A stretch of 22,603 nt of DNA from a virus. How positions within the stretch are numbered: position 1 is the stretch's first letter; each line of letters opens with the position of its first letter. Position numbers and translations under genes: made by a program. The notes beneath the pieces are model-generated. The model made no database searches. It saw only the letters and a program-made list of their open reading frames with translations, and had not been told where the DNA came from. Location of the stretch: positions 1-22,603 of the IMG/VR virus record IMGVR_UViG_3300029309_000373; one strand, 5' to 3'. Below are positions 408 to 21,900 of the stretch, one piece after another.

Positions 408-485
408 TTATTGTTTTTTTGGTGTAAAAATAGATTTTATTTTGTCCCAAATTCTGCAACAAATTCTTTTACATTTATCCATCAT
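408..485 (-). CDS. 25-aa cationic cysteine peptide
   Basis: The ORF starts with two consecutive ATG codons (485-483 and 482-480) and ends TAA at 408-410. A strong Shine-Dalgarno GAGGAG lies at 493-498, seven bases before the first ATG, and this decides the start. The gene overlaps the last 11 bases of the 216-aa gene in another frame. The product contains Cys5, Cys9 and Cys10 (CKRICC), Trp13, many Lys/Arg and an alternating IWDKIKSIF segment that could be an amphipathic helix. I know of similar tiny CxxxCC peptides in this genome position in marine phages only by impression. Function is unknown; metal binding or membrane contact are possibilities. Confidence 0.6.
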   Translation of the reverse strand: MMDKCKRICCRIWDKIKSIFTPKKQ

Positions 486-1125
486 TTTTTTTCTCCTCAA
501 TATCATAAAACATTTTATCTGAATCCTCTGTTATCCAATCATCACCTTCTACATCCCAGTAAGTAGTTTGAACCTTATAGTCAGGCCAATTATTTTCTGT
601 TGTGTAGCTATTGACATGCCAAATTATTCTATTATTTGGCTGAGCTGCATAATTGCCATTCTTTAAAGCAAGTATGTGAGCACATTTATGCTCTTGCGGT
701 ATTTCAGAATGTTCCGTATTTAATATATTAGTCTCTGGATGTGCCCAGTCAATAGTAAAAAGATATTGACCTTTGTGGAATTTTTTGTCTCTACCCATAA
801 ATTTGCCATTTATACCAGCCAACCAATCAAAACAATGAACACTAGGATAGTAACTAAAACAGTTCCACAATTGCAACTCATCCACTCGCATATCTGGCAC
901 TTGATTTCTTTCAAATTCTTTTTGAAAAAACGCACTAATAGGTAATCTGTAGAAGACCGCACCATTCGGTAACATACAATGAAACAATATTGCACGCCCT
1001 GAAATAGAAGCAATGCCAAAGACAACACAGTCAAAATAATCTCCTTTATGTTTTTTAAGATCATAGAGATACTCCTTTCGTATTTTGCAATAAATAGGTG
1101 GTATGTTTGCATTTAAATAAGCCAT
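475..1125 (-). CDS. Conserved marine-phage protein of unknown function (216 aa)
   Basis: The gene starts seven bases after the DNA polymerase stop, and its Shine-Dalgarno GAGGA overlaps that stop codon (TGAGGACTTATG). It is therefore part of the replication operon. The N-terminus MAYLNANIPPIYCKIRKEYL is one I recognise as strongly conserved downstream of polA in marine phages, always without a function. The protein is soluble and rich in aromatic residues (14 Trp/Tyr in the last 110 residues, for example IIWHVNSY and YWDVEGDDW). It has scattered cysteines (13, 33, 50, 89, 98 and 147) but no evident catalytic or nucleotide-binding motif. Its position suggests a replication or DNA-metabolism role. 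I cannot say more. Confidence 0.85.
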   Translation of the reverse strand: MAYLNANIPPIYCKIRKEYLYDLKKHKGDYFDCVVFGIASISGRAILFHCMLPNGAVFYRLPISAFFQKEFERNQVPDMRVDELQLWNCFSYYPSVHCFDWLAGINGKFMGRDKKFHKGQYLFTIDWAHPETNILNTEHSEIPQEHKCAHILALKNGNYAAQPNNRIIWHVNSYTTENNWPDYKVQTTYWDVEGDDWITEDSDKMFYDIEEKKNDG

Positions 1126-1131
1126 AAGTCC

Positions 1132-3069
1132 TCATTTTATTTCTCCCCAATTAGGGCCAGATTCATAGTCTACCTTATTGGGGACTTCTAAGTCAACAGC
1201 TGACTCCATGATATCTTTTATTTTGGCAGCTTCCAACTCGTTTAACACAGATATATCAAGTTCATCATGTACTTGTATATGTGGTGTAATACCTTCTTTG
1301 TGTAATTCTACCATTGCTTTTTTTGTCATGTCTGCAGCAGATCCTTGAATTAATCTATTTAATGCTTTGTATGTAAATGCTCTACGTGTTGGATTTTCAT
1401 GCCAATAATTTTTCTTAGGATTACCTTCTTTATCTTTTATAATATTTCCTTCATCATCTTTTAAAATTGGTCCCATATTCTGTAGATCTAACATACTCTC
1501 GTGATCCTCTGCAGGCACAAATGTTCCCCATTCTTTACCTCTTAAAACAGGTTCATATTTTGGAAATCTACAACGTCTACCAAGTAAAGTTTTTATCTGA
1601 CCTTTTTTCTGTGCAGCTGACATTACCTTGTTCATCAGTTGTCTTACAAATGGTGCCTTATTATGATACTTGTTAAATAATTCTTCTGATTTTTCTTTTG
1701 TAACACCTAACTCTGCTTGAAGTTTAGCTTTACCCATACCATAAAATAAACCTAAGTTAATTGTCTTAGCTTGTGATCTTGGTATCTCTGCCATCTCTGC
1801 AACTATTTTGTGAAAGTCTGTTGATGAATCATTTTCGTATGAGTCTGCAATTGGATTTACTGAACCTAATCTAAATTTTAAAGCATAGTGTGCAACCAAT
1901 CTTGGTTCCTGTTGCGAGTAATCAAAACATCCCCACTTCATACCTTCTTCTGGTATGAACAAAGATCTTATCATAGGACCTGTTGCTGGATCTCTTGCTG
2001 GTATCTGTTGTAGATTAGGATTTACATAACTAAATCTACCTGTAACGGTGCCACCATCATCAGATCTTATTTGATTTATTTCAGAATGTATTCTCTCACA
2101 ATGTTCGTATTTCAATATAGAATCTATGAACGTTGTTCTTACCTTGTTTATTTTTCTAGCTTGTGCTATCTTTTGAACTAAAGGATGTGGATGATTAACA
2201 AGAAAGTTTTTAGTAAATGATGGTTCGTCTGATTTTGCAGTTCTGGAATATGGTAACTTTAATTTATCAAAAAGCGTGGCGATACTTCTTGCAGCCATTA
2301 ATTGAATGTCTAGGTTACTTTCTTTTTTTATTTGTAACAACAACATCTCTTCTTGTAATTGTAGGTCTTGTTTCACTCTATGAGCTTTTTCAACGTCCAC
2401 TCTCACCCCAAGAAATCGCATATCTACCAGACAAGGAAATAGATCTGTCTCAAGATTAAATATATCTTGTAAGTTATCTTCGATAATTATTTTTTGACAC
2501 TTGTGCCAAAGTTCTAAAGTTAGTTCAGCATCTTTTTCAGCGTATGCTCCAACTTCCATTGCAGGTAGTCTCCACATATCTGCTTTTGCATCTAGTCCTC
2601 TTTCTTTTGCAGCTTGAACTAATCTAGATTCGTTTTTACCTTTTGATAAATGATGCCACGATAAAGTATTTAGTGTGTATGAGTATCTGTTCTCATCAAT
2701 TAATGATGATGCAATCATGGTATCTACTATTAAACCATTGATATTTATACCCAATTTACGTATCCAACATACGTCATACATAGCGTTATGAAATATTTTT
2801 GTAGCGGGAGATTCACACAAATCTTTAAACCATTCTAAAGTTTTTTTCCTATCCATATTAGGTCCATTTTCATGTGCAATAGGAAAGTATCTTTTGTATC
2901 CTTCTACGGCCACAGCAAATCCTACAATCTCACCTACACCAATTACAGAGCCTGACCCTTTTGATTTTAATTCTGGATCTCTTGTTTCCAAATCAATTGC
3001 AATCTCAGGATAAGATCTAAGATCAGGATATTCTGTTGGCATTAACCATTCTGTATCAGGTAATATCAT
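1132..3069 (-). CDS. polA: Family A DNA polymerase with 3'-5' exonuclease domain
   Basis: This is the replicative polymerase. The proofreading domain covers about residues 20-200: Exo I IDLET (Asp26, Glu28), Exo II HNAMYD (Asn95, Asp99) and Exo III YAEKD (Tyr176, Asp180). The polymerase domain has motif A CFDYSQQEPR (Asp383), motif B RSQAKTINLGLFYG (Arg431, Lys435, Tyr443) and motif C VHDE (601-603). No 5'-3' nuclease domain is present, as is usual in phage enzymes. Leu439 aligns with E. coli Phe762. Motif A reads QQEPR instead of the usual QIELR. A Lys/Asp-rich insertion lies near residues 510-560. The stop lies seven bases before the 216-aa gene, and the start overlaps the DUF3310 gene (ATGA). 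Confidence 0.97.
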   Translation of the reverse strand: MILPDTEWLMPTEYPDLRSYPEIAIDLETRDPELKSKGSGSVIGVGEIVGFAVAVEGYKRYFPIAHENGPNMDRKKTLEWFKDLCESPATKIFHNAMYDVCWIRKLGININGLIVDTMIASSLIDENRYSYTLNTLSWHHLSKGKNESRLVQAAKERGLDAKADMWRLPAMEVGAYAEKDAELTLELWHKCQKIIIEDNLQDIFNLETDLFPCLVDMRFLGVRVDVEKAHRVKQDLQLQEEMLLLQIKKESNLDIQLMAARSIATLFDKLKLPYSRTAKSDEPSFTKNFLVNHPHPLVQKIAQARKINKVRTTFIDSILKYEHCERIHSEINQIRSDDGGTVTGRFSYVNPNLQQIPARDPATGPMIRSLFIPEEGMKWGCFDYSQQEPRLVAHYALKFRLGSVNPIADSYENDSSTDFHKIVAEMAEIPRSQAKTINLGLFYGMGKAKLQAELGVTKEKSEELFNKYHNKAPFVRQLMNKVMSAAQKKGQIKTLLGRRCRFPKYEPVLRGKEWGTFVPAEDHESMLDLQNMGPILKDDEGNIIKDKEGNPKKNYWHENPTRRAFTYKALNRLIQGSAADMTKKAMVELHKEGITPHIQVHDELDISVLNELEAAKIKDIMESAVDLEVPNKVDYESGPNWGEIK

Positions 3070-3305
3070 TTTTTATCTTTCAATTTTTTTATCTCTAAAT
3101 CACAATAGTGTTTAATTTTTTCTAAATCCTGTATACCATTTTTATTTAAATAACGGCACACATACTTTATAACGTTCCCTTGAAAGAATGAAAGGTCATT
3201 CTTTGAAATAAATTCGTAAGGCTGTATACGAAACGATTTATAATGTGATCCTCCAATTTGCTTATCTTGTGGAAACGCATCTTTAAAAATATCTTTGTGT
3301 GTCAT
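3066..3305 (-). CDS. DUF3310 family small protein
   Basis: Residues 17-75 match the DUF3310 pattern (Pfam PF11753): the start IGGSHYKSFRIQPYEFI, the central FFQGNVIKYVCRY, and the end DLEKIKHYCDLEI. The family is common in phages, often near replication genes. It has been called nucleotide kinase-like in some annotations without firm proof, and no P-loop is visible here. At 79 residues it consists of little more than this domain. It overlaps both neighbours by ATGA (helicase stop and polymerase start), so it is translated coupled with the replication proteins. A role in nucleotide supply or replication is inference from the neighbourhood. Confidence 0.88.
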   Translation of the reverse strand: MTHKDIFKDAFPQDKQIGGSHYKSFRIQPYEFISKNDLSFFQGNVIKYVCRYLNKNGIQDLEKIKHYCDLEIKKLKDKK

Positions 3306-4723
3306 AATCTGTACTCCTTTCTTTTTATTTTTGATTTAAGTTTATATAAATTATTACGTGCTCTTGTAATTCCTACGTACCAAACACGATGTTCTTCATC
3401 ACGTTTGTCAACACTTCTTTTTATAGATTTTTGTATTTTATCTCCTTGATGTAAAGCTAAAATTACATTATCCTGTTCGCCACCTTTTATTGCATGAATT
3501 GTAGACATAAATATTCTTGCATCCATATCTAAATCTTCACCTTTTTCTAACATTATTCTTATATATCTTTTTTCTTTTTCAGGAGCTGCAATGAATACAT
3601 CATACCAATTTTTAGTTCTGTTAAATAATTCATCACCCATAAAATCTTGACATTCTTTCTCTTCTTTCTCATCTAAAATTTTACCCTTTTTAGTCCAGTC
3701 TGTGTATAGTTTAGCTGCTTTGTATAATCTAACTTTGTAACTCTTACCTCTGTTACTTTGATAATATAAATTTTTCTTTCTAACTTCATTCATTAACTCT
3801 AACAATTGACTCTTGGTTCTTGTTAAAATCAACCATTTACCTTTTGTTAAATCTACCTGGCCTAAGTTTGCAATATATTTACACTCACCTTCATAGTCTC
3901 TCGCTAAATAATCTTTTTGTTTCCTGATGCCTGATATACTTTCTATTGGTCTATTGGACTCTTCTTGTACAATTCTTGATATACGTCTAGATTTTTTTAA
4001 TACTTTTTCTTTTGCAGGCTCTTGTATAAATCTACTAACATCTGCACCAGCCCAAGCAAAAATAGCTTGGTCATCGTCACCTGCGAGATATAGATCTTTG
4101 CTCTTTTCTTTTAATCTATCATACAATTTCCATTGTAATGGTGACAAGTCTTGTGCTTCATCAATAAATACAACATCAAATTCTGGAACTTTATTTAATA
4201 CATTATTTATGATGTCATTAAAATCATAGAGCCTGTAGTTCTTTTTATATTTTATAAAGTTGTCATGTATATGTTTTAATGTGGTCCACCTAATTTGTTT
4301 TCTATCGTGTTCATTACGATCAAACTCTTCTCTAATTTCTACGTCTCTATTGATTGCTCTTCCTATCATTTGAAAGTACGGGTCATTACATGTTAAGAAA
4401 TGTGATTCTTCTTCATTGTATTTATCAGAATACTTTACTCGAATACCTAGTTCTTTACCTAAGTCTTCATAGTGAAATGGTTGCATTATGTTTTCTTCAT
4501 TTAAACCAAGAGTGTTATATGCAAAAGAATGTAGCGTTTGAAAATGTTCTAGTTTCTTTTCATCGATAGGCATTCTTTCTCTAGCTTCTCTTGCTGCTTT
4601 TCTTGTAAATGCAAAATAACCTATCTTATGTAGTGGTGTTCCTATTCTAACATATGCTCTTGCTCTATTAATAAGCCTGTGAGTTTTACCCGTGCCTGGC
4701 GGACCATATATTTTATGTATCAT
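3302..4723 (-). CDS. Compact superfamily 1 (UvrD/Rep-like) DNA helicase
   Basis: All core SF1A motifs are visible: Walker A GPPGTGKT (7-14), Ia AFTRKAAREA (38-47), motif II IDEAQD (187-192), motif III GDDDQAIFAWAGA (215-227), motif V STIHAIKGGEQDNVIL (407-422) and motif VI VWYVGITRARNNL (447-459). At 473 residues it is much shorter than UvrD or Rep (about 670-720) and nearer to T4 Dda, so the 1B/2B insertions must be reduced. It lies between the primase and DUF3310 genes with ATGA overlaps on both sides. No DnaB-type helicase is seen in the window, so this enzyme is the best candidate for the fork or an assisting helicase. That role is inferred. Confidence 0.94.
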   Translation of the reverse strand: MIHKIYGPPGTGKTHRLINRARAYVRIGTPLHKIGYFAFTRKAAREARERMPIDEKKLEHFQTLHSFAYNTLGLNEENIMQPFHYEDLGKELGIRVKYSDKYNEEESHFLTCNDPYFQMIGRAINRDVEIREEFDRNEHDRKQIRWTTLKHIHDNFIKYKKNYRLYDFNDIINNVLNKVPEFDVVFIDEAQDLSPLQWKLYDRLKEKSKDLYLAGDDDQAIFAWAGADVSRFIQEPAKEKVLKKSRRISRIVQEESNRPIESISGIRKQKDYLARDYEGECKYIANLGQVDLTKGKWLILTRTKSQLLELMNEVRKKNLYYQSNRGKSYKVRLYKAAKLYTDWTKKGKILDEKEEKECQDFMGDELFNRTKNWYDVFIAAPEKEKRYIRIMLEKGEDLDMDARIFMSTIHAIKGGEQDNVILALHQGDKIQKSIKRSVDKRDEEHRVWYVGITRARNNLYKLKSKIKRKEYRL

Positions 4724-6324
4724 ACTATGTCCTCTTCCTTATCAAACTCTAATATTTCTTCTGGTGGTTCGTCCTCTTCAAATTGTTTCATATCTATTTC
4801 CATACATCTAATTGGATTGCCTTTACCTATTCTCTTTTGTTTACTAGGCTCTGCTTGAAATACATCAACGACCATTGTCTTTGTTTCGTTTTCATCCATA
4901 CGCCATTCATTTCTTTTTAACTCCTCGTAAAATTTATAAAATAAAAAATATCCTTTGCTTTCTTCTACATACACTGATCCACTTTTGAATCCATTTAGTG
5001 TTGTAGTTCTCACATCGTTTAGATATTCTTTTAGATGTCTAAACAATATACCTGCTGGTTGTGACTCTGGATCTGGTATCTCTACATTTAATTGTGACCA
5101 TAGTTCAGATACTATATCCTGAAAATCTTTTGCTTTGATAGCTGGTGGTACGATGTTTGTATGCTCTGCAATTAATGCTCTTAGTTCTCTTTGCTCTATT
5201 ATTTGTTTTACAGTTTTTGCATTAATAGTTTTAATTTTACCACTTGGTTGTTTTACATACAAAAAGAATTTTGGATGTGGTCTGTAATCCATTTTAGTTA
5301 CACTAATTATCTCAGGCCATGATGCATTTAATTGTTTACCAACGCCATACTTTCTACGCAAACATATACTCTTAGCACACTTAGATTGTATTGGATCTTC
5401 ATTACAAGTATAACCTGCTGTGTCACCCTTCCATGCTTTTATTTTTGATTTAACTTTGTCATCACCCCAGATGTTATCGTATTTAATATAATCCCTTGCT
5501 TTCTGTAAAACTTTATCTTCCCATTGATCTGGGTATTTTCTCTTGGCGAATACCATGTAGTTGTATAAGAATCTGTCTCTTTCGTCTGGTAGCTTTTCTT
5601 TCGTTCTTTCTATGTCGCCACATATCAGACCAAGACATGGTGGTCCCTCATCAAATTCTGTTGCTTGATTTTTTAATTCTTTGTTAATTAAATCTATACC
5701 AAGTTTTTTTAAATCTTCTGCAGATTGTGCGTTTAAATTTATAACTTTAATAAACGTATTGAAATCTATTTTATCTCCATCAGGTTTAACCGCTACTCTA
5801 TCTTTCTTGTTATAGTATGGTAGATTTATAAAATTACCCGAAGGTCTTTTACCATCACTTGAATCTAATGAAGTTTGTTTTGGATATATTTCTGTTTTTG
5901 ATGGTAGACCAAATATAAATAATAATTTTTCTAAAAATTCTCTTATCTCAGATGCTTTTATTTTTTCTTTAGCAAATAAATATAAATGAAGCCCACCTGA
6001 TTTTGATATGATAGGTATTACTGGTAACTTTTTTTCGTCAATTGTTTTTAAATATTTTTGTAAATTAAAATCTGTATAGTTTTTAGGATCAATATCTATT
6101 GCACCGAAGATAGCTTTGCCCTCATCATCACATGGATTTACACCAATAGATTTAACACCACTTAAATGTTCTTCGTAATCTTTATCTGTTATTTCTTTTT
6201 TAGCCCAACCATAATCTTTGGGTTCAAATTTTATTTTTCCAGACTCATCTTTGTATCCGTTATGAATATTACAGAATCCATAATTACGTTTTAAACCTGT
6301 GAAATATTTTATAAAATCCTTCAT
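4720..6324 (-). CDS. AEP-superfamily primase (primase-polymerase) with C-terminal cysteine cluster
   Basis: The first 200 residues carry the archaeo-eukaryotic primase signature: AIDIDP (metal ligands Asp77, Asp79), then SKSGGLHLYLF (Ser109, His113), then a strand near GNFINLPYY (163-171). This places it with AEP/PrimPol-like enzymes, close to the type called TOTE-like, not with TOPRIM phage primases. Further on, Cys230 and/or Cys235 and the group Cys307-x8-Cys316-x4-Cys321 (start YTCNEDP, end CLRRKYG) look like a Zn or PriL-like Fe-S site. The C-terminal 180 residues match nothing I know and end in an acidic tail. There is no helicase domain. The start has no clear Shine-Dalgarno and lies 9 bases after a strong hairpin. 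The stop overlaps the helicase start (ATGA). Confidence 0.85.
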   Translation of the reverse strand: MKDFIKYFTGLKRNYGFCNIHNGYKDESGKIKFEPKDYGWAKKEITDKDYEEHLSGVKSIGVNPCDDEGKAIFGAIDIDPKNYTDFNLQKYLKTIDEKKLPVIPIISKSGGLHLYLFAKEKIKASEIREFLEKLLFIFGLPSKTEIYPKQTSLDSSDGKRPSGNFINLPYYNKKDRVAVKPDGDKIDFNTFIKVINLNAQSAEDLKKLGIDLINKELKNQATEFDEGPPCLGLICGDIERTKEKLPDERDRFLYNYMVFAKRKYPDQWEDKVLQKARDYIKYDNIWGDDKVKSKIKAWKGDTAGYTCNEDPIQSKCAKSICLRRKYGVGKQLNASWPEIISVTKMDYRPHPKFFLYVKQPSGKIKTINAKTVKQIIEQRELRALIAEHTNIVPPAIKAKDFQDIVSELWSQLNVEIPDPESQPAGILFRHLKEYLNDVRTTTLNGFKSGSVYVEESKGYFLFYKFYEELKRNEWRMDENETKTMVVDVFQAEPSKQKRIGKGNPIRCMEIDMKQFEEDEPPEEILEFDKEEDIV

Positions 6325-6333
6325 AATTTATCA

Positions 6334-6361
6334 AGGCCGGTCCACTCTCGCTTTCCGGCCT
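6334..6361 (-). promoter_or_regulatory. GC-rich hairpin upstream of the primase start
   Basis: AGGCCGG (6334-6340) and CCGGCCT (6355-6361) form a perfect 7-bp inverted repeat around a 14-base loop. On the transcript the loop is AAAGCGAGAGTGGA. No U-tract follows, so it is not a standard intrinsic terminator. It lies nine bases before the primase ATG and is far richer in G+C than its surroundings. It probably acts on RNA, as a stability, processing or translation control element. Confidence 0.7.
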
Positions 6362-6372
6362 CGAGTTGCAAC

Positions 6373-6388
6373 GATTCCCGTAGGAATT
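6373..6388 (-). promoter_or_regulatory. Small hairpin with UACG tetraloop at the stop of the 257-aa gene
   Basis: On the transcript the sequence reads ATTCC-TACG-GGAAT (6374-6378 pairs with 6383-6387). The loop UACG closed by C-G belongs to the very stable UNCG tetraloops. The stem begins inside the TAA stop codon of the upstream gene. No U-run follows. It may protect the 3' end of the upstream message or mark a cleavage point. Confidence 0.6.
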
Positions 6389-7160
6389 ATACAATATCTC
6401 CTGTAGCAGAGTTTTTCTCATACTTAGGTTTAGCAGTTCCTTTAGCTACAGTTTTTTGTAGTTTCTGTGCTGCTACATATAAATCTGCATCTTCTGATTT
6501 AGTAATGTCTAACATTCTAATTTTAGATGGTTTATATACATGCCAACTTTTACTACCCGCAGTTTTGCCAATCGTTTTAAGATTAAACAAAGCTGAGTAT
6601 GCAGCAGGTTGGAATGAACCTTTGTCATCTGATACTCTTAAATTAGTTATCAGATTATTTAGTTCTCTCGCTGGTGATAAATTAGACGAACGCATAGTAA
6701 TTACAGCAGGTCTGAACTCTTCACCTTGTACCATTACTACATAAAAGTAAGCGGTCTTCTCAACATAATTACCATTAGGTAATCTGTATCTTCCATTTCT
6801 TTCTTCTGTAGCATCTGCAGGTATTTCCATGTGAGTTCCAACTGGTGCTGAAGCACTATCTCCTCTCTCTTGCCATTCAGGATATCTAGTTTGAGTGTGA
6901 GCAACAACAACGTTGATGCCTTCGTTCTCACCGTCCATTAATTGACCAAAAGATGAAGCGTAAATCATTCCTGGTTTGGAACCTTTTACGTATTTTGGAT
7001 CTCTTTCGTTACACTCTGGAGATAATTGATGAAGAATTTTTAAGATCGGAGTTGATACATCATCTCCTTTAATTTCTTCTGCACCTTTACCAGAGTCACC
7101 TCTGAGATTTATTGTTGCTAATGCACCAGCATCAGCTTTATTAGCTAATTGACTTTCCAT
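6387..7160 (-). CDS. Conserved phage protein, candidate single-stranded DNA-binding protein (257 aa)
   Basis: The start has a very strong Shine-Dalgarno, AGGAGG at 7165-7170, four bases before the ATG. This implies high expression, as expected for a stoichiometric protein. Conserved-looking blocks are TPILKILHQLSPE (37-49), KPGMIYASSFGQLMDG (62-77), TRYPEWQERGD, and FQPAAYSALFNLKTIGK with KSWHVYKPSKIR in the C-terminal half. I know similar proteins (LxxLQALSPE near the start) from phage replication regions, without a proven function. Predicted strands, the place before primase and high translation suggest an SSB-like or recombination helper. The tail is basic, unlike the acidic tail of T7 gp2.5, which weakens the idea. 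Two hairpins follow the stop. Confidence 0.75.
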   Translation of the reverse strand: MESQLANKADAGALATINLRGDSGKGAEEIKGDDVSTPILKILHQLSPECNERDPKYVKGSKPGMIYASSFGQLMDGENEGINVVVAHTQTRYPEWQERGDSASAPVGTHMEIPADATEERNGRYRLPNGNYVEKTAYFYVVMVQGEEFRPAVITMRSSNLSPARELNNLITNLRVSDDKGSFQPAAYSALFNLKTIGKTAGSKSWHVYKPSKIRMLDITKSEDADLYVAAQKLQKTVAKGTAKPKYEKNSATGDIV

Positions 7161-7192
7161 TTTTCCTCCTATTAAGTTATTGGTTTATTAAT

Positions 7193-7741
7193 TTAGCTTT
7201 TATTTTTTATCTTTACTTGATCTACATCAAGTACAGAAAACAGATCAGATGGAATTTCATTTCCTTTTTCTTTCCATTCCTTCATCACTGCTGATACAGA
7301 AGCATGGTGAGCATCTTCCTTTTGAGAAGGCTCATAGCCATGCTCCTTTGCAAGGTTAGCGTATGCCATAGCCTTGTTTTCTTCGCCTTGACCAAAAGTA
7401 ACACTAATATTATTTTTAATAATGTCACCTAAGCCATTGTTTCGAAGCCATTGATATGCATCTGCTCTTTTATCTGCTCTAGCATTTGCATAAAATTTTT
7501 TACCAACTGAAACTTCAGATCCATCTTTTAATTTCAGTGTACTTAAATTCATGTCATACATTAATTTTGGTATCACATCATAGACAAAATGTTTTTCGTC
7601 TTCTTCTAAATCTTTTACCTGTGCTTTTAATGTGGAGATTTGATTTTGTATTGATTTTAATTTCTCTATTTCTTCAGAGAGTTTTTTTGGATCAATTATA
7701 TCGCTTTGATCAGGAGCGTCTTGCCGTAAGTTTATTGTCAT
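7193..7741 (-). CDS. Conserved phage protein with N-terminal coiled coil (182 aa)
   Basis: This is the first gene of the replication operon. Its promoter lies at 7788-7817 and a Shine-Dalgarno AGGAAA at 7747-7752. Residues about 19-50 form a heptad-like coiled coil (KLSEEIEKLKSIQNQISTL). After this come a small beta segment (STLKLKDGSEVSVGKKFYAN) and a helical part with DAYQWLRNNGLGDIIKN and ISVTFGQGEENKA. I know this Trp-Leu-Arg-x-Asn-Gly pattern from phage genes located next to the preceding type of protein (LSPE), again without known function. The two probably work together on DNA. No enzymatic motif is visible. Confidence 0.8.
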   Translation of the reverse strand: MTINLRQDAPDQSDIIDPKKLSEEIEKLKSIQNQISTLKAQVKDLEEDEKHFVYDVIPKLMYDMNLSTLKLKDGSEVSVGKKFYANARADKRADAYQWLRNNGLGDIIKNNISVTFGQGEENKAMAYANLAKEHGYEPSQKEDAHHASVSAVMKEWKEKGNEIPSDLFSVLDVDQVKIKNKS

Positions 7742-7787
7742 TTACTTTCCTATATGTTTTTATTAATTTAATTTTTAATAGCGTATT

Positions 7788-7817
7788 AATATATAGAGAA
7801 GTAATTTTTATTGTCAA
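7788..7817 (-). promoter_or_regulatory. Sigma70-like promoter of the replication operon
   Basis: On the minus strand a perfect -35 TTGACA (7812-7817) is followed by TATATT at 7788-7793 (spacer 18) or TATATA at 7790-7795 (spacer 16). It sits directly after the TAG of the 111-aa gene and about 40-45 bases before the ATG at 7741. This gap of 76 bases otherwise holds only AT-rich sequence and the Shine-Dalgarno. Confidence 0.75.
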
Positions 7818-8153
7818 CTACTTTTGATGAATATTTATTTCTATTGGATAATAAGTTTTTTCTTGACGGTCCCATTTTAATAATTTGAATTTTCCATTTG
7901 TAATGTCTGAAACAACAGAACACACAACACCTATAATTGCAGGATCACCTGATAATAAAAGATAATCTTCTTCCGTATAGTTTTTTAGAAGAGTTCTAAG
8001 TTTGTGTATTAGTGGTCCTGGAGATAAAATCATTTGAGAAAACTCTGGTAGTAAAGTCACAATATCGCCATATTTTTGTGCGCCTACAATATTATACTTA
8101 GGTTCACCTTTAGCGGTGCCAGGTATGTCTTGAATTAAATAAACTTTGCTCAT
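7818..8153 (-). CDS. Conserved marine-phage protein of unknown function (111 aa)
   Basis: I place the start at the ATG at 8153 (MSKVYLIQDIPG), not at the in-frame ATG at 8171. The extra six residues (MKRKKS) would overlap the likely -10 region, and homologues I remember begin at this point. Neither start has a good Shine-Dalgarno. Blocks seen are VGAQKYGDIVTLLPE, ILSPGPLIHKL, YLLLSGDPAIIGVVCSVV and KLLKWDRQEKTYYPIEI. The protein is short and soluble, with an alternating strand/helix pattern and the conserved triplet GDP. I recognise it as a frequent gene near replication genes of marine phages, without a function. It is divergent from the helicase at 8206. Confidence 0.75.
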   Translation of the reverse strand: MSKVYLIQDIPGTAKGEPKYNIVGAQKYGDIVTLLPEFSQMILSPGPLIHKLRTLLKNYTEEDYLLLSGDPAIIGVVCSVVSDITNGKFKLLKWDRQEKTYYPIEINIHQK

Positions 8154-8181
8154 TGACTTTTTTCTTTTCATACACTATATA
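8153..8181 (+). promoter_or_regulatory. Sigma70-like promoter of the plus-strand helicase-glycosylase island
   Basis: TTGACT (8153-8158), a spacer of exactly 17 bases, and TATATA (8176-8181) form a good promoter about 25 bases before the ATG at 8206. The -35 starts within the ATG of the divergent 111-aa gene, so the two start regions overlap. Confidence 0.7.
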
Positions 8182-8183
8182 GT
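8174..8183. promoter_or_regulatory. 10-bp palindrome ACTATATAGT in the divergent promoter region
   Basis: This is a perfect palindrome containing the plus-strand -10 (TATATA). On the minus strand the same bases offer a -10 with a weak -35 (TTTACT at 8198-8203, spacer 16). It could be a shared -10 for divergent transcription or an operator. In such AT-rich DNA chance is possible. Confidence 0.4.
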
Positions 8184-8205
8184 TTTTTAGAAAGAAAAGT
8201 AAAGT

Positions 8206-9639
8206 ATGAACTATAAATTTAAAACTAAGCCTTATGCACATCAATTAGATGCATTAGAAGCTTCTTGGGATAAAGAAAACTTTGCCTATTTTATGGAGAT
8301 GGGTACAGGTAAATCTAAAGTCTTATTAGATAATGCAGCCATATTGTATGATAAAGGCCATATAAATGGATTATTATTGATAGCACCAAAAGGTGTTTAC
8401 AAAAACTGGTATGACTCTGAGATACCTACACATTTACCTGATCACATAGAAAAAAAAGTTGTCCTTTGGAAAACGTCTGACAAGTCTAGAAAACAAATGT
8501 CTTTGTTAAATACTTTGTTCGAAACAGGCACAGACCTTCATATTTTAATTATGAATGTAGAGTCTTTTTCAAAAGGTGCAGGTTTACAATTCGCACAAAA
8601 ATTTTTATCTTGCCACAAAGCAATGATTGCTATCGATGAATCCACTACTATAAAAACACCTACATCTAATAGAACTAAAAGTATTTTAAAATTAAGACAG
8701 GATGCAAAGTATAGAAGAATATTAACGGGTTCTCCTGTAACTAAATCACCATTAGATTTATTTTCTCAATGCTTGTTTCTTGATCCCTGGCTCCTTAATC
8801 ATCAATCTTATTACACATTTAAAGCTAGATATGCTGTTACTAAAAAAATAGAAGTTCAGGGTAGACGTATAGAGATTGTGGTTGGTTACAGAAATCTTTC
8901 TGAGTTATCAGAAAAAATAAAACCTTTTTCTAAAAGAATATTAAAAGAAGATTGTTTAGATCTACCTGCAAAATCTTTTATTAAACATACCGTTGAACTT
9001 ACTAAAGAACAGAATAAAGTTTACGAACAGATGAAGAAAGAAGCAATAGCATTTCTTGATGGTAAGATGCAATCTACAGCCACGGTCATGACTCAGCTTA
9101 TGCGATTACATCAAATAACTTGTGGTCATTTTACTGCTGATGATGGCACAATAAAAGATTTACCTTGTAGTCGTTTAACTGAATTGATGAGTATATTAGA
9201 AAACATTGAGGGTAAAACTATTATCTGGTCTCACTATACACACGATGTAAAAAGAATTATTGAAAAGATAAAAGAAGTATATGGTGATGAATCTGTAGTA
9301 GATTATTTTGGTGAAACAGATCAAGAAAATCGATCAAAGAATATAAAAAGATTTCAAACAGATGACAAGTGTAGATTTTTTGTAGGAACTACGCATACTG
9401 GTGGTTATGGTATTACATTAACTGCTGGTAGCACAATGATTTATTTTTCTAACGGTTATGATTTAGAAAAAAGACAGCAATCAGAAGCACGTATAGATCG
9501 TATTGGTCAAACTAAAAAGATGACTTACATAGATATAATGGCACAAGATACAATTGATGAACAGATAGTAAAAGCTTTGCGTAACAAAGTTAATATTGCA
9601 AATACAATTATGGGTGAAGGTTATAAAGAGTGGATTTAA
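8206..9639 (+). CDS. SNF2-type superfamily 2 helicase/translocase
   Basis: The protein has the two-lobed SNF2 layout: Q-like start YAHQLDALEA (10-19), Walker A EMGTGKS (31-37), Ia LLLIAPKGVYKNW (56-68), motif II IDEST in place of DEAH/DEGH (143-147), motif III LTGSPVTKSPLDLFSQ (173-188), motif IV region KTIIWSHYTHDV, motif V GGYGITLTAGSTMIYFS, and motif VI QSEARIDRIGQ (425-435) with the arginine finger. At 477 residues it is the bare motor with no added nuclease domain. Enzymes of this type move along double-stranded DNA and remodel bound protein or forks. It is the first gene of the only plus-strand unit, and its stop touches the start of the glycosylase gene (TAAATG), so the two are probably made together. 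Confidence 0.93.
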   Translation: MNYKFKTKPYAHQLDALEASWDKENFAYFMEMGTGKSKVLLDNAAILYDKGHINGLLLIAPKGVYKNWYDSEIPTHLPDHIEKKVVLWKTSDKSRKQMSLLNTLFETGTDLHILIMNVESFSKGAGLQFAQKFLSCHKAMIAIDESTTIKTPTSNRTKSILKLRQDAKYRRILTGSPVTKSPLDLFSQCLFLDPWLLNHQSYYTFKARYAVTKKIEVQGRRIEIVVGYRNLSELSEKIKPFSKRILKEDCLDLPAKSFIKHTVELTKEQNKVYEQMKKEAIAFLDGKMQSTATVMTQLMRLHQITCGHFTADDGTIKDLPCSRLTELMSILENIEGKTIIWSHYTHDVKRIIEKIKEVYGDESVVDYFGETDQENRSKNIKRFQTDDKCRFFVGTTHTGGYGITLTAGSTMIYFSNGYDLEKRQQSEARIDRIGQTKKMTYIDIMAQDTIDEQIVKALRNKVNIANTIMGEGYKEWI

Positions 9640-10044
9640 ATGAGAGATGATCTAATGGTACAACAACAGGTAAATAGTATATGGCAACACATGGTTGGTG
9701 TTATTTGTTTAAACAAAACTAGACGTCAAAAAGTTAAAAAGATGTTGCCAGCATTCTTCGATGAGTTTCCAACAGCGATACACCTTTTACAATCTGACAA
9801 AGACAAGATAGCAGAAATGCTGAAAGACTTGGGTATGAAACATGTCAGGGCCAACAGGCTGTGGCGGATGTCACAAGACTATCTCGGTTGGGACGGCGAA
9901 GACGCAACAGAATTATTTGGTATTGGTAAGTATGGTAGTGACAGCTACAGGATATTTTACAAAGACGAGATACCGGATAACATACAGGACAGCGAACTAA
10001 AAAGATATGTAAGAGAAGAGTTAAAAAAAGAATCCCTTATCTAA
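9640..10044 (+). CDS. MBD4-like helix-hairpin-helix DNA glycosylase
   Basis: The whole 134-residue protein can be aligned by eye with the catalytic domain of human MBD4. WQHMVGVICLNKT corresponds to WKLLIATIFLNRT, AEMLKDLGMKHVRANRLW to the SELLKPLGLYDLRAKTI segment, and ELFGIGKYGSDSYRIF to ELHGIGKYGNDSYRIF. The HhH loop is GIGKYG (94-99). Tyr98 takes the place of the lyase lysine of EndoIII (as Tyr540 in MBD4), which predicts a monofunctional glycosylase. Asp117 (IQDSELKRY) aligns with catalytic Asp560. MBD4 removes T or U opposite G. No methyl-binding domain or Fe-S cluster is present. GC reaches 58% at 9841-9900. The last 24 bases overlap a minus-strand gene. The family assignment is strong; the substrate is inferred. 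Confidence 0.87.
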   Translation: MRDDLMVQQQVNSIWQHMVGVICLNKTRRQKVKKMLPAFFDEFPTAIHLLQSDKDKIAEMLKDLGMKHVRANRLWRMSQDYLGWDGEDATELFGIGKYGSDSYRIFYKDEIPDNIQDSELKRYVREELKKESLI

Positions 10045-10242
10045 AACTTTCTCCAACAGCAGAAGTGATACTGCCCCAACAGTACCCAATAACACCCAAT
10101 AGATCTTGTCTATCTTACCGCCCAAATTGTGTATACCATCATGCATGTGTTTCATATCTTTCTTCATACCTGTAATATATCCATAGATGGATAATAAATG
10201 TTCTCTGGTGCTTTTAGGTCTTAACCTGTCTCCGTTTGGCAT
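10021..10242 (-). CDS. Small C-terminally anchored membrane protein, possibly XhlA/holin-like
   Basis: 73 residues: a polar N-terminus with a helix (about 13-45, rich in Lys, His and Met), then one membrane segment at 47-63 (IYWVLLGTVGAVSLLLL) and a short end EKVLDKGFFF. Size and layout are like XhlA-type or other small phage lysis-associated proteins. I see no decisive motif. The Shine-Dalgarno AGAGGA stands about ten bases before the ATG, and the start overlaps the stop of the 1,369-aa gene (TAATG). It is thus the last gene of the virion operon, a usual place for lysis genes. Its 3' end overlaps the glycosylase gene tail to tail by 24 bases. Confidence 0.7.
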   Translation of the reverse strand: MPNGDRLRPKSTREHLLSIYGYITGMKKDMKHMHDGIHNLGGKIDKIYWVLLGTVGAVSLLLLEKVLDKGFFF

Positions 10243-13200
10243 TATGCTAGTCCTCTTTGTCTAAGTTTAATCATCTTCTCCTCTTCAGATAATAATGCGT
10301 TTTCTACTGGTGTCAAACCTTGATTCATGTTTCCTGGTGCTTGTGACGTTTGTATCACTGCAGCGCTAGGCATATCGGTTGGTGGTAATGCAGACTGACC
10401 TGCTGGATCAGTATCTGGTAAAAAGTCTTTTAAATCTAAATTAAAATCACCATATAAATTTTGTGTCTCCATTAGATTTCTCATAGCTTCAAGCGTTCCT
10501 TCTGCACCTAAGAATGGATTAGGTTGTCCGCCTTCGAGTGCAATGTCTTCAAATCTTTCTTGAATTTTTTCTGAAGGAAAAAAAGCTTTAAACTCACCAG
10601 ATAATAAACTATCTAATAATCCAGTTGGTATACCTCTTTTTTCAAATATCTCTTCTAGTTTATTTGGATTAACACCTAACTTCATAGCATTTAATAAATG
10701 TTTTTGTGCATCTTTTCTAACTTGAAACAAAGCTTTATTTGCAACAAAATACCTTTCAATTACATCCTTTGGTGTTTTAGGTTCACCAGATAACACACCA
10801 AACTTACCACCGGTAAATAATTTGGTTGCTTCTGATTGACCTTGTCTAAGATCATACAAGTAAAATCCTAACGCTTTTTCTGGATCAACTTTTTCTAATC
10901 TAAAACCAAATATACCTGCAAGTTCTTTTGGCACCTCATACATTACAGGACCTTTACCCGGTATCTTTTTTATACCTTTATATGTTCTTTCAAAAGGTGC
11001 AGTTGTAGGTTTTAAAGTTTTAATTACATGTTTCATACCAATTTCTATTTGTTCTGGTAAGGGTGTTGTATCTGTCCACAACTCCTGACCTTCTCTAGTT
11101 CTACCACCTCTTAACATAATGTCTGCAAATGCCTCTGAATAAATAGACTCTGATATAAATGGTGATGCTGTTTCACCTGCAGCTTTTGCAATACCCTCTA
11201 TAAAACCTTTTAATAATACTTCTTCGTCTTCTATACCTTGTTGTATATTAGTAAGTAAACTTTGAAATGGTCTTGTAAGTGTATCGTATACATTATTTTT
11301 AGACCAATCTGTGTAATACAACTCACCTGTGTCTGGATCTTTAACAAAAATTAATTGTGAATTTTTTGACCATGGTGCAACAAAGTCTCTTGCTGCATCT
11401 GCCTCTTCTTGCGTTACTCCATAAATTGCTTGTGATCCTTTTATTAAACCATATGGAATTACACCCATAGCAAGTGTTGTACCTATAAGTCTTTTTATAC
11501 CCTCTGCTTTCATAGGGTTTGTGCTCGTTACTGGATTTATTTTACCTGTTACAGGGTCTCTTAGATCTTTCATTATCTGTCTAAATATACCTGCACCTGT
11601 TCTAAATACTTCTGATGGCCATGACATAAAATTACCAAGTGGAGATACACGCATGGCTCTTACAAACTCACCAACCTTTGCATAGTTTGGAACGGTGTCT
11701 TGTACAATTTCTGCAACTTCTTTTTTAAGTGCGTCGGGAGATATTTTGATACCTGCTTTTTTATATAGATCTCCTCTTTTTATTAATTGTGTTTCATAAT
11801 TAATAATTTTCCAAATGTCATCTTCAGCTACATATAAGTCCTGCATGAACTTACCAGCTTTTTTAATACCTCTAGATGTTTTTTTACCTAAAGTTTCTAA
11901 CATTGGTTTTAAAACACTATCGGTTGCAATATTACCCTCACCAAATCTAATATCTTTCATTAGATTACGTAGATCTCCAAGCCTTACATTTGTATTTACA
12001 ATACCTAGTTCTAAGTATTCTCTGTATTTTTCTTGTGATAATTCTTTTCTAGGTCCACCTACCTGAACGCTACCAAATGCGTTTTGCATTGCTCTTGCAA
12101 AAAGTCTTGGGTCAGAAAGTATTGCACCATTTGCAATAGAAAATGCTGCAGAACTTAAAAAATTTCTTATGTGTGTTGGTACAGATAAAATTGTTTTTGC
12201 GTATTGTGCACCAGCTTTAGGTGTTAAAACTCCATATCTCCATGCTGCAGAAAAAGTTCTACCTAAAGCACCACCAGTATCACCTCTCATAAAATCTTGT
12301 ATTTTAGATACGTTTGTAAAACCCTCTGCTATTTCTCTTGTTGTGTATGTGCCGGATAATCTATTTACTAACACACCTTCTTTAAAATATTCTTTTACAT
12401 AGTCATCCATTTTGACTATATCTGCTTGATTACCAAACGCTCTTTTTGCGGCTAATGGACTATCATGAAAAAATCCTCTTTGTCCCAATGGTGTAGTTGA
12501 TTTTGTGTTGGCTTTAGCTACTGCATCAGCATCTAATATTTCATCAAATAATTGATTTTTTCTTGCTATTGCAGACAATCTGTTAGTTCCTTCAAAAATA
12601 GAATGTCTTACATCATTAATTTCTCCAAATAATTCTCTAAATATTTTAGATCCCTTACCTATAACTTGTATTTCTTTTTTACCACCTGGTAAGTTTTTAG
12701 TTAAAGTTTGTGCAAATGTTTTTAAACCCATAGCATCGTCTGCAGACTTAGATAAATTTTGATACACAAAAGTTGGTAGTGTATCTTTTTTTGGGTCCAT
12801 CTTTCTAACTTGTTTTATAATATCATTAACCATACCTTCTGCTTCTAAATCTGTAATAGGATTATTATTTTTGGCTGCATATCTTTTAAATAATGCTGCA
12901 GTATTTTTTACTGCATCTTTTGTAGGTTTATATTTTTGAAAAAAACCAGCTTCTGCATCTTCAAATATTTCAAACGTATTACCTATATAATTTTTAACTC
13001 TATTACCCATAATCTTTCTAAGATCTTTAGTAACACCCGTAGGTAAATCTACTTTTGCTCCTGGTCCTGATGCAGTTATTTCTAGTAAATTATTAAATTC
13101 TTTTCTTGTTTTATCTAGTATATCTAAAATTTTGTTACCCGTTATTGCACCCTCTTGTTTACCCATTCTTTTTGTAATAGTTGTTAAAATATCTTTTTTA

Positions 13201-21183: not shown

Positions 21184-21900
21184 TTATCCTAACGATGTTT
21201 GAATAGGTTCCCATACCTGAGTAGCTCCTGGTACGATACCATCCCATTTTTTAATTAATACAGAATCATCTGCTATGTTTATTCTACTACCATCAGGAGT
21301 AACCGTAGCTTTTGCTACAATCGTTACAGTTCCTGTTGATAAATTTTGTCTATTTGTTGTTACAGTTACGGTTGCATTCGCTCTTGTTGTAACATTACCT
21401 ATTTCAACATCTACTCTATTTCCAGTTACTGATAAGTTTGCATCAGCAGATATAGTTACTGATCCTGTGCTAACATCTACTCTAGATCCATTTGGTAATA
21501 CTGTTGCTTTACCAACTGTTGTAACGTTTCCTGTATTTGTATTTATTCTAGATCCTGATACAGAATATACAGAAGCAAGTGTAGGTGTACCTGTATTTAG
21601 ATTTACTCTTGATCCTGTAAGAGCTAGTGTTGCTTTTGCAACAATAGTTGGATCACCAGTTGTAACATTAATACGACTACCATCAGGAGATACAATAACA
21701 CCTGTACCTTCTACAATAGTTACATTACCAATAGTAAAATTAAGTCTTGTGCCATTAACAGTTACATTAGCTTTACCAACTAAACCTACCGTGCCTGTAG
21801 ATTCATTTAATCTTGACCCTAGGACGTTGACGAATGCGTTAGGATTAAAGCCTACATCTGAGAAGGCTGCTGCCGAAAAGGGGGTAGCACCGAAATACAT
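21184..21900 (-). CDS. Repeat-built tail/adhesin protein (238 aa)
   Basis: The N-terminus is MYFGATPFSAAAFSDVGFNP. Nine repeats of 21-24 residues follow (21-218), each of the form A-x-[VL]-x-x-x-G-[ST]-R-[IVL]-[ND]-x-x-x-G-x-[VP]-T, for example GSRINTNTGNVT. The C-terminal cap is WDGIVPGATQVWEPIQTSLG. Repeats of this length rich in Val, Thr, Asn and Gly suggest a stacked beta fold, as in beta-helix or fibre shafts. Its translation start is hidden in a hairpin (21901-21915). A role as surface or tail appendage is inferred from the repeat type and from the fibre genes on both sides. Confidence 0.78.
   Translation of the reverse strand: MYFGATPFSAAAFSDVGFNPNAFVNVLGSRLNESTGTVGLVGKANVTVNGTRLNFTIGNVTIVEGTGVIVSPDGSRINVTTGDPTIVAKATLALTGSRVNLNTGTPTLASVYSVSGSRINTNTGNVTTVGKATVLPNGSRVDVSTGSVTISADANLSVTGNRVDVEIGNVTTRANATVTVTTNRQNLSTGTVTIVAKATVTPDGSRINIADDSVLIKKWDGIVPGATQVWEPIQTSLG
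21247..21840 (-). repeat. Nine diverged tandem repeats of about 66 bases inside the tail gene
   Basis: The repeats are clear in the protein (units at residues 21-43, 44-67, 68-89, 90-110, 111-131, 132-153, 154-175, 176-197, 198-218). In DNA they are diverged; blocks such as tctactctagatccatttgg and related ones recur with changes. They are therefore old, or kept apart by selection. Confidence 0.75.

Follow-up and report, generated by a model that had tools for sequence, protein, structure and literature searches.

The viral DNA fragment IMGVR_UViG_3300029309_000373 (the window, 22.6 kb from IMG/VR), from an uncultured ocean phage, encodes a 134-residue protein that homology supports as a stand-alone MBD4-type DNA glycosylase whose catalytic site is intact. 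Discussion of MBD4 has mostly concerned animals and plants and the enzyme's connection with DNA methylation. The viral protein is a member of a large marine viral family that is mobile, and its gene is most simply read as a recent, single-gene, accessory arrival in the phage that carries it. The enzyme probably acts in an accessory role on G:U and G:T pairs, protecting phage DNA during replication; its fold and active site are assigned by homology, and the reaction and substrate are those we infer.

The open reading frame runs from an ATG start to a TAA stop codon (Table 1), and HhH-GPD is the sole Pfam family to pass its curated cut-off (2.2e-6). Searching the PDB with phmmer places the MBD4 glycosylase domain at the top (4.9e-15), with endonuclease III (EndoIII) at 3e-4. 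A profile built from 60 relatives matches MBD4 at 5.3e-29 over residues 5–123 of 134, the thymine-DNA glycosylase MIG at 5.6e-9, and EndoIII at 2e-7; PHROGs holds no family matching the glycosylase. An AlphaFold2 model built from the family alignment (mean pLDDT 94.7, pTM 0.89) was compared with the PDB using Foldseek, and the best 16 matches are all MBD4 (TM 0.74–0.84), followed by MIG and MutY. By sequence, profile, predicted fold, and active-site residues, the MBD4 catalytic domain is thus favored over EndoIII, MutY, and MIG. These results bear out the preliminary description, made from the DNA letters and translations, which had aligned the protein with the MBD4 catalytic domain; the profile comparison and structure prediction it proposed both put MBD4 first, and Asp117 lies within the active site. 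Its reading of the protein as the catalytic part only is likewise confirmed: all 134 residues are glycosylase domain and the methyl-CpG-binding domain of full-length MBD4 is absent.

EndoIII and MutY belong to the same superfamily but match less well. Tyr98 occupies the position of the EndoIII catalytic lysine, and the EndoIII (Nth) model TIGR01083 scores 23 bits against a cut-off of 211.7. The MutY model TIGR01084 reaches 18 bits against 286.5, and at 134 residues the protein has neither the C-terminal 8-oxoG domain of MutY nor its Fe–S cluster, the Fe–S cysteine set being absent from a sequence with a single Cys. MIG.Mth, a thermophilic thymine-DNA glycosylase (PDB entry 1kea) that acts on G:T, shares the HhH-GPD fold and catalytic Asp and forms the second-best group by profile and fold, but aligns over residues 14–101 only. 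It is longer than the window protein and has a [4Fe-4S] cluster. Assignment to MIG is further disfavored by the missing Fe–S cysteines and by the presence of a methyltransferase in only about 4 of the 62 carrier records. The UDG fold (PF03167) was not recognized in the window protein, for which Pfam gives HhH-GPD and one sub-threshold match only.

A search of a viral structure library returned one confident match, the HhH-GPD protein of Clostera anastomosis granulovirus A (U5KBB0; 36% identity, 1.7 Å over 121 columns), which differs in being a 245-residue insect baculovirus protein; no phage protein in that library matched the model confidently. The ENDO3c-domain protein of Bosavirus phages (vB_SmaS-AXL_1, vB_Xar_IVIA-DoCa6) is also a stand-alone phage protein with the same active-site motif (27–30% identity). 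It differs in having 160 residues, Leu at the position of the MBD4 arginine finger, and a gene located beside those for thymidylate synthase and dCMP deaminase.

Residues were mapped onto MBD4 through the HMMER alignment, in which chain numbering matches the published human numbering at 9/9 positions checked. The window protein shares with the human and mouse catalytic domains the fold, D560, Y540, L466, N467, T469, the GIGKYGxDSYRIF core, and the lack of an Fe–S cluster, with 35% identity over 113 aligned columns. It differs in lacking the methyl-CpG-binding domain, in the replacement of R468 (K/Q in the family), K562 (Glu), and L508 (Met), in having one residue fewer ahead of the catalytic Asp, and in its viral, marine source. 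Asp117 and Tyr98, which the preliminary description had identified as the catalytic residue and as the substitute for the EndoIII lysine, align with the MBD4 nucleophile D560 and with Y540, respectively, and are present in 103/103 aligned members. Also invariant are N25, T27, G65, G94, G96, K97, D101, S102, F106, L120, Y123, and the GxGKY core. L24 is the equivalent of L466, N25 and T27 are identical to N467 and T469, G65 corresponds to G507, and M66 to L508.

MBD4 reads thymine through Q449 (O2, N3), Y540 (O2), and the V448 backbone (O4), D560 primes the water, and the arginine finger R468 senses the orphan G of T:G (PMC12073362). The ungapped HMMER alignment pairs Q449 with V7, not Q8; the L-x-Q-E motif of two relatives (L107, L018) and MBD4 points instead to V7-Q8 as the probable counterpart of V448-Q449, a pairing that needs a one-residue gap. 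Position 26, the R468 site, is Gln in 87 of the 103 members, Lys in nine (including the window group), Leu in six, and Met in one. In MBD4, R468K is active, and changes of R468 to Q, Y, F, E, or L lose all or nearly all activity (PMC12073362), so that K26 of the window protein corresponds to the activity-keeping change. K562, the MBD4 contact to the 5′ phosphate, is replaced by Glu in 99/103 members, the window protein included. Because the arginine finger is replaced, the protein is named an MBD4-type variant rather than MBD4, and because both of these DNA contacts differ, its T:G activity is a prediction. Judged from these alignments, the family's chemistry looks intact, with a possible change in mismatch sensing that is clearest for Gln-type members.

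Table 1. Features of the window that relate to the glycosylase gene, with positions in the 22.6 kb stretch
Feature	Position	Strand	Basis or remark
Family A DNA polymerase	1132..3069	−	Pfam; 73% identical to Pelagibacter phage HTVC027P
UvrD-type helicase, replication module	3302..4723	−	Pfam
TOTE-type archaeo-eukaryotic primase, replication module	4720..6324	−	Pfam
SNF2-family helicase (phrog_62)	8206..9639	+	Stop codon abuts glycosylase start; 66% identical to HTVC027P helicase
MBD4-type HhH-GPD DNA glycosylase, 134 aa, catalytic domain only	9640..10044	+	ORF, Pfam, phmmer, AlphaFold2, Foldseek, family profile
Segment missing in contig L147, net insertion of 385 bp	9640..10025	+	Comparison with L147
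V7-Q8, putative counterpart of MBD4 V448-Q449	9658..9663	+	Q8 in 99/103 members; exact pairing inferred
K26, site of MBD4 arginine finger R468 (Q in most relatives)	9715..9717	+	Alignment
Helix-hairpin-helix signature LFGIGKYGSDSYRIFY, residues 92–107, including Y98 = MBD4 Y540 at 9931–9933	9913..9960	+	Alignment
D117, catalytic aspartate = MBD4 D560	9988..9990	+	Invariant, 103/103; alignment
Small convergent gene, HTVC027P gp86 homolog (59% identity), right-hand flank of insertion	10021..10242	−	Homology

An empty site for the gene is provided by contig L147 (IMGVR_UViG_3300030060_003061), which is identical to the window at 96.2% of nucleotides over 3302–9640 and 96.1% over 10011–12389 and lacks the glycosylase gene. 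The junctions fall within two similar 15-bp stretches (9626–9640 and 10011–10025), which suggests microhomology-based joining. The C-terminal ESLI of the window protein (four residues) is encoded by phage flank beside the insert and is not family sequence, a correction to the preliminary description. In HTVC027P, the helicase abuts gp86 directly and the glycosylase gene is absent, and none of the 80 closest relatives by PolA carries the gene, 58 of them showing both UvrD and primase. Since a 96% identical contig lacks exactly this gene, its arrival in the window appears recent, and its absence from all 80 relatives marks it as dispensable. Precise loss from L147 is formally possible, but is disfavored because loss would need repeating across the 80 relatives.

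The SNF2 helicase, directly after which the gene sits, is the only other main plus-strand gene in the window. A fixed partnership of the two was considered and rejected, as only the window and one other viral locus (L002) show it. Across 92 viral loci, a core replication gene (primase, UvrD or SNF2 helicase, DnaB, or PolA) is found within four genes of the glycosylase in 67, and a PD-(D/E)XK nuclease gene is nearby in 18 more. At least five slots are occupied: primase-GLY-UvrD, UvrD-GLY-DUF3310, gp34-GLY-primase, GP88-GLY-Toprim primase, and PD-(D/E)XK-GLY-terminase, where GLY is the glycosylase. On the family tree, the window protein and its three nearest relatives (support 100/99) occupy three different slots, and the starred branches alone force at least 10 changes for one slot label, on a tree of few columns and many unresolved forks. 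The gene thus appears to change slot repeatedly within replication modules. In 45/88 loci its start codon and the stop codon upstream share 1 or 4 nt, suggesting co-translation with replication genes.

Several further observations concern these neighborhoods. The TOTE-type primase domain is known from conflict systems. Membership of the glycosylase in a defense system was rejected, its PADLOC match being weak and generic and those of the helicase reflecting the SNF2 fold. A pyrimidine dimer DNA glycosylase (PF03013) lies a few genes from the MBD4-type gene at L117:13721-14191, and likewise in the L011, L012, and L065 neighborhoods, placing two repair glycosylases in one module. Elsewhere in the window, the product of 475–1125 (minus strand) falls in a PHROGs family annotated as ferredoxin and has no Pfam match, and its counterpart by position and size in HTVC027P is annotated as PurM; the gene at 21184–21900 (minus strand) encodes a predicted protein of repeated GSRxNxxTGxVT-like units, probably structural.

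At least 588 IMG/VR stretches encode relatives according to a profile-guided scan, and the same approach found seven loci among cellular genomes of 84,980 species, several of which look viral. The copy in Candidatus Actinomarina (L103:5001-5387; 59% identical) looks chromosomal, as its neighbors are genes such as those for CbiM and EamA transporters; it is present in one of 42 genomes of that family, and the carrier genome has no UDG-family match. Against 50,697 phage records, the window protein matches only cyanophage S-TIM54 (54%), the only complete marine isolate carrying the gene, and two Bosavirus-type phages (approximately 27%, two records each); the Actinomarina homolog as query adds two further phages. 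No description of an MBD4-type glycosylase from a phage turned up in the literature search. For magroviruses, a DNA glycosylase has been reported whose family is not given (PMC10160649). The dN/dS ratio is approximately 0.03 for the window and its relative L003, and across the 231 informative pairs its median is 0.13. As estimated from these alignments, the family is under strong purifying selection, and ratios this low make a decaying or inactive gene unlikely. Placement of eukaryotic MBD4 on the family tree was dropped, the branches being too long for a reliable root.

The hosts of the window phage are likely SAR11-type bacteria, a link that rests on similarity to the Pelagibacter phage HTVC027P. 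The order searched is putatively SAR11, an assignment based on SAM-V riboswitches, on the size of its genomes, and on a SAR11 16S probe that matches 21/58 genomes perfectly or with one mismatch. UDG-family proteins occur in 110/117 genomes of this order, with one or two such enzymes per SAR11-type genome. MutS domain I (MutS_I) was found in 0/58, and 11/14 control genomes were positive. For SAR11 subclades Ic and IIa.A, published work reports the absence of both mutS and mutL (PMC12374537). Hosts of this type would therefore already handle uracil but lack MutS-based T:G correction. The idea that the phage makes up for missing uracil repair in its host is unsupported, given the UDG-family proteins in those 110 genomes. 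The phage-type glycosylase was found in 0/297 putative SAR11 genomes, where open-frame profile matches are weak and of EndoIII/MutY size and three further marginal matches are broken by stop codons; a cellular origin from SAR11 was rejected on this ground.

Of the roles raised in the preliminary description, repair during phage replication fits the surroundings best. In the reading we favor, the protein would act as a monofunctional glycosylase: U or T paired with G would be flipped into a pocket made up of V7/Q8, L24, and Y98, D117 would activate a water to cut the N-glycosidic bond, and the resulting abasic site would be left to host base excision repair. As an accessory gene that repeatedly enters the DNA-replication operons of marine phages, it would probably reverse cytosine deamination and correct T:G mispairs in phage DNA that has just been replicated. 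SAR11-type hosts have UDG and lack MutS, so T:G activity is what they would be unable to provide for themselves. Counting against this reading, T:G repair has no strand memory and could do no more than bias errors in one direction. More tentatively, the glycosylase could be a roaming, single-gene mismatch-correction module that passes from phage to phage between replication operons and acts on T:G and U:G during the phage's own replication in hosts without MutS and MutL, a broader role that we regard as possible but doubtful.

Rather unlikely, though the strongest competitor to repair of both mispairs, is an enzyme acting mainly on uracil in G:U, which would have lost T:G sensing through its Gln or Lys finger and would back up the host UDG at replication forks. 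The prevalence of Gln at position 26, together with the near inactivity of R468Q in MBD4 (PMC12073362), argues for such a loss in the family, but the window protein has Lys, the sole tolerated change. A U-only enzyme would moreover be redundant in a SAR11-type host, where UDG-family enzymes are already present.

Removal of T arising from 5-methylcytosine deamination in self-methylating phages, as performed by MIG and Vsr beside their methyltransferases, is an improbable role. A C5 cytosine methyltransferase lies three genes downstream of the glycosylase in L024, L037, and L096 and near it in L087, and the complete isolate S-TIM54 combines the glycosylase with a C5 methylase-family protein, alongside a DNA alpha-glucosyltransferase-like protein, ThyA, and ThyX. 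Clear examples are nevertheless confined to 4/62 carrier records, with one more weak match, although most records are fragments and the true share may be higher; a general link to C5 methyltransferases was accordingly rejected (4–5/62). C5 methyltransferases of a few carriers are seen at L114:13819-14238, L123, L125, and L126, three genes downstream of the glycosylase in three cases. None was found in the window, nor any other base-modifying gene, in agreement with the preliminary description; this absence is weak evidence, as the window is a 22.6 kb fragment and the HTVC027P genome measures 57.6 kb. Genes for PTPS (6-pyruvoyl tetrahydropterin synthase) or GTP cyclohydrolase I, as in 7-deazaguanine pathways, occur near distant relatives (L101:9219-9719, L105:6033-6485, L102:9373-10059). 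Modified DNA may matter for some carriers, not in general, and the preliminary suggestion that the enzyme reads a modified base fits a minority of them.

Attack on modified-pyrimidine DNA, whether the host's or a rival phage's, generating abasic sites as the Brig glycosylases do in defense, is very improbable. Brig1–3 set a precedent for anti-phage glycosylases (PMC13160076), and, like many weapon genes, this one is accessory and mobile. Brig enzymes, however, belong to the UDG superfamily and have a different fold, the phage gene lies among replication rather than defense genes, and its pocket residues match the pyrimidine pocket of MBD4. No sign was found of the attack on host DNA considered in the preliminary description. 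Least probable of all is a shift to another HhH substrate, either A opposite 8-oxoG or oxidized pyrimidines: the Gln at the finger position resembles Q28 of Bst MutY (PMC12073362) and the K562 to Glu change alters the catalytic loop, but MutY and EndoIII are weaker by both sequence and fold, the EndoIII lysine is Tyr, and the Fe–S cluster and MutY C-terminal domain are missing.

A marine viral family built on the MBD4 catalytic domain, with no methyl-binding part and an altered arginine finger, provides natural variants for studies of T:G recognition, and two nearly identical genomes, one carrying the gene (the window) and one lacking it (L147), offer a clean natural comparison. The family also bears on phage genome upkeep in SAR11-type hosts that lack MutS and MutL. 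If the roaming-module proposal is true, a glycosylase would be doing the work of mismatch correction in hosts that lack the usual system.
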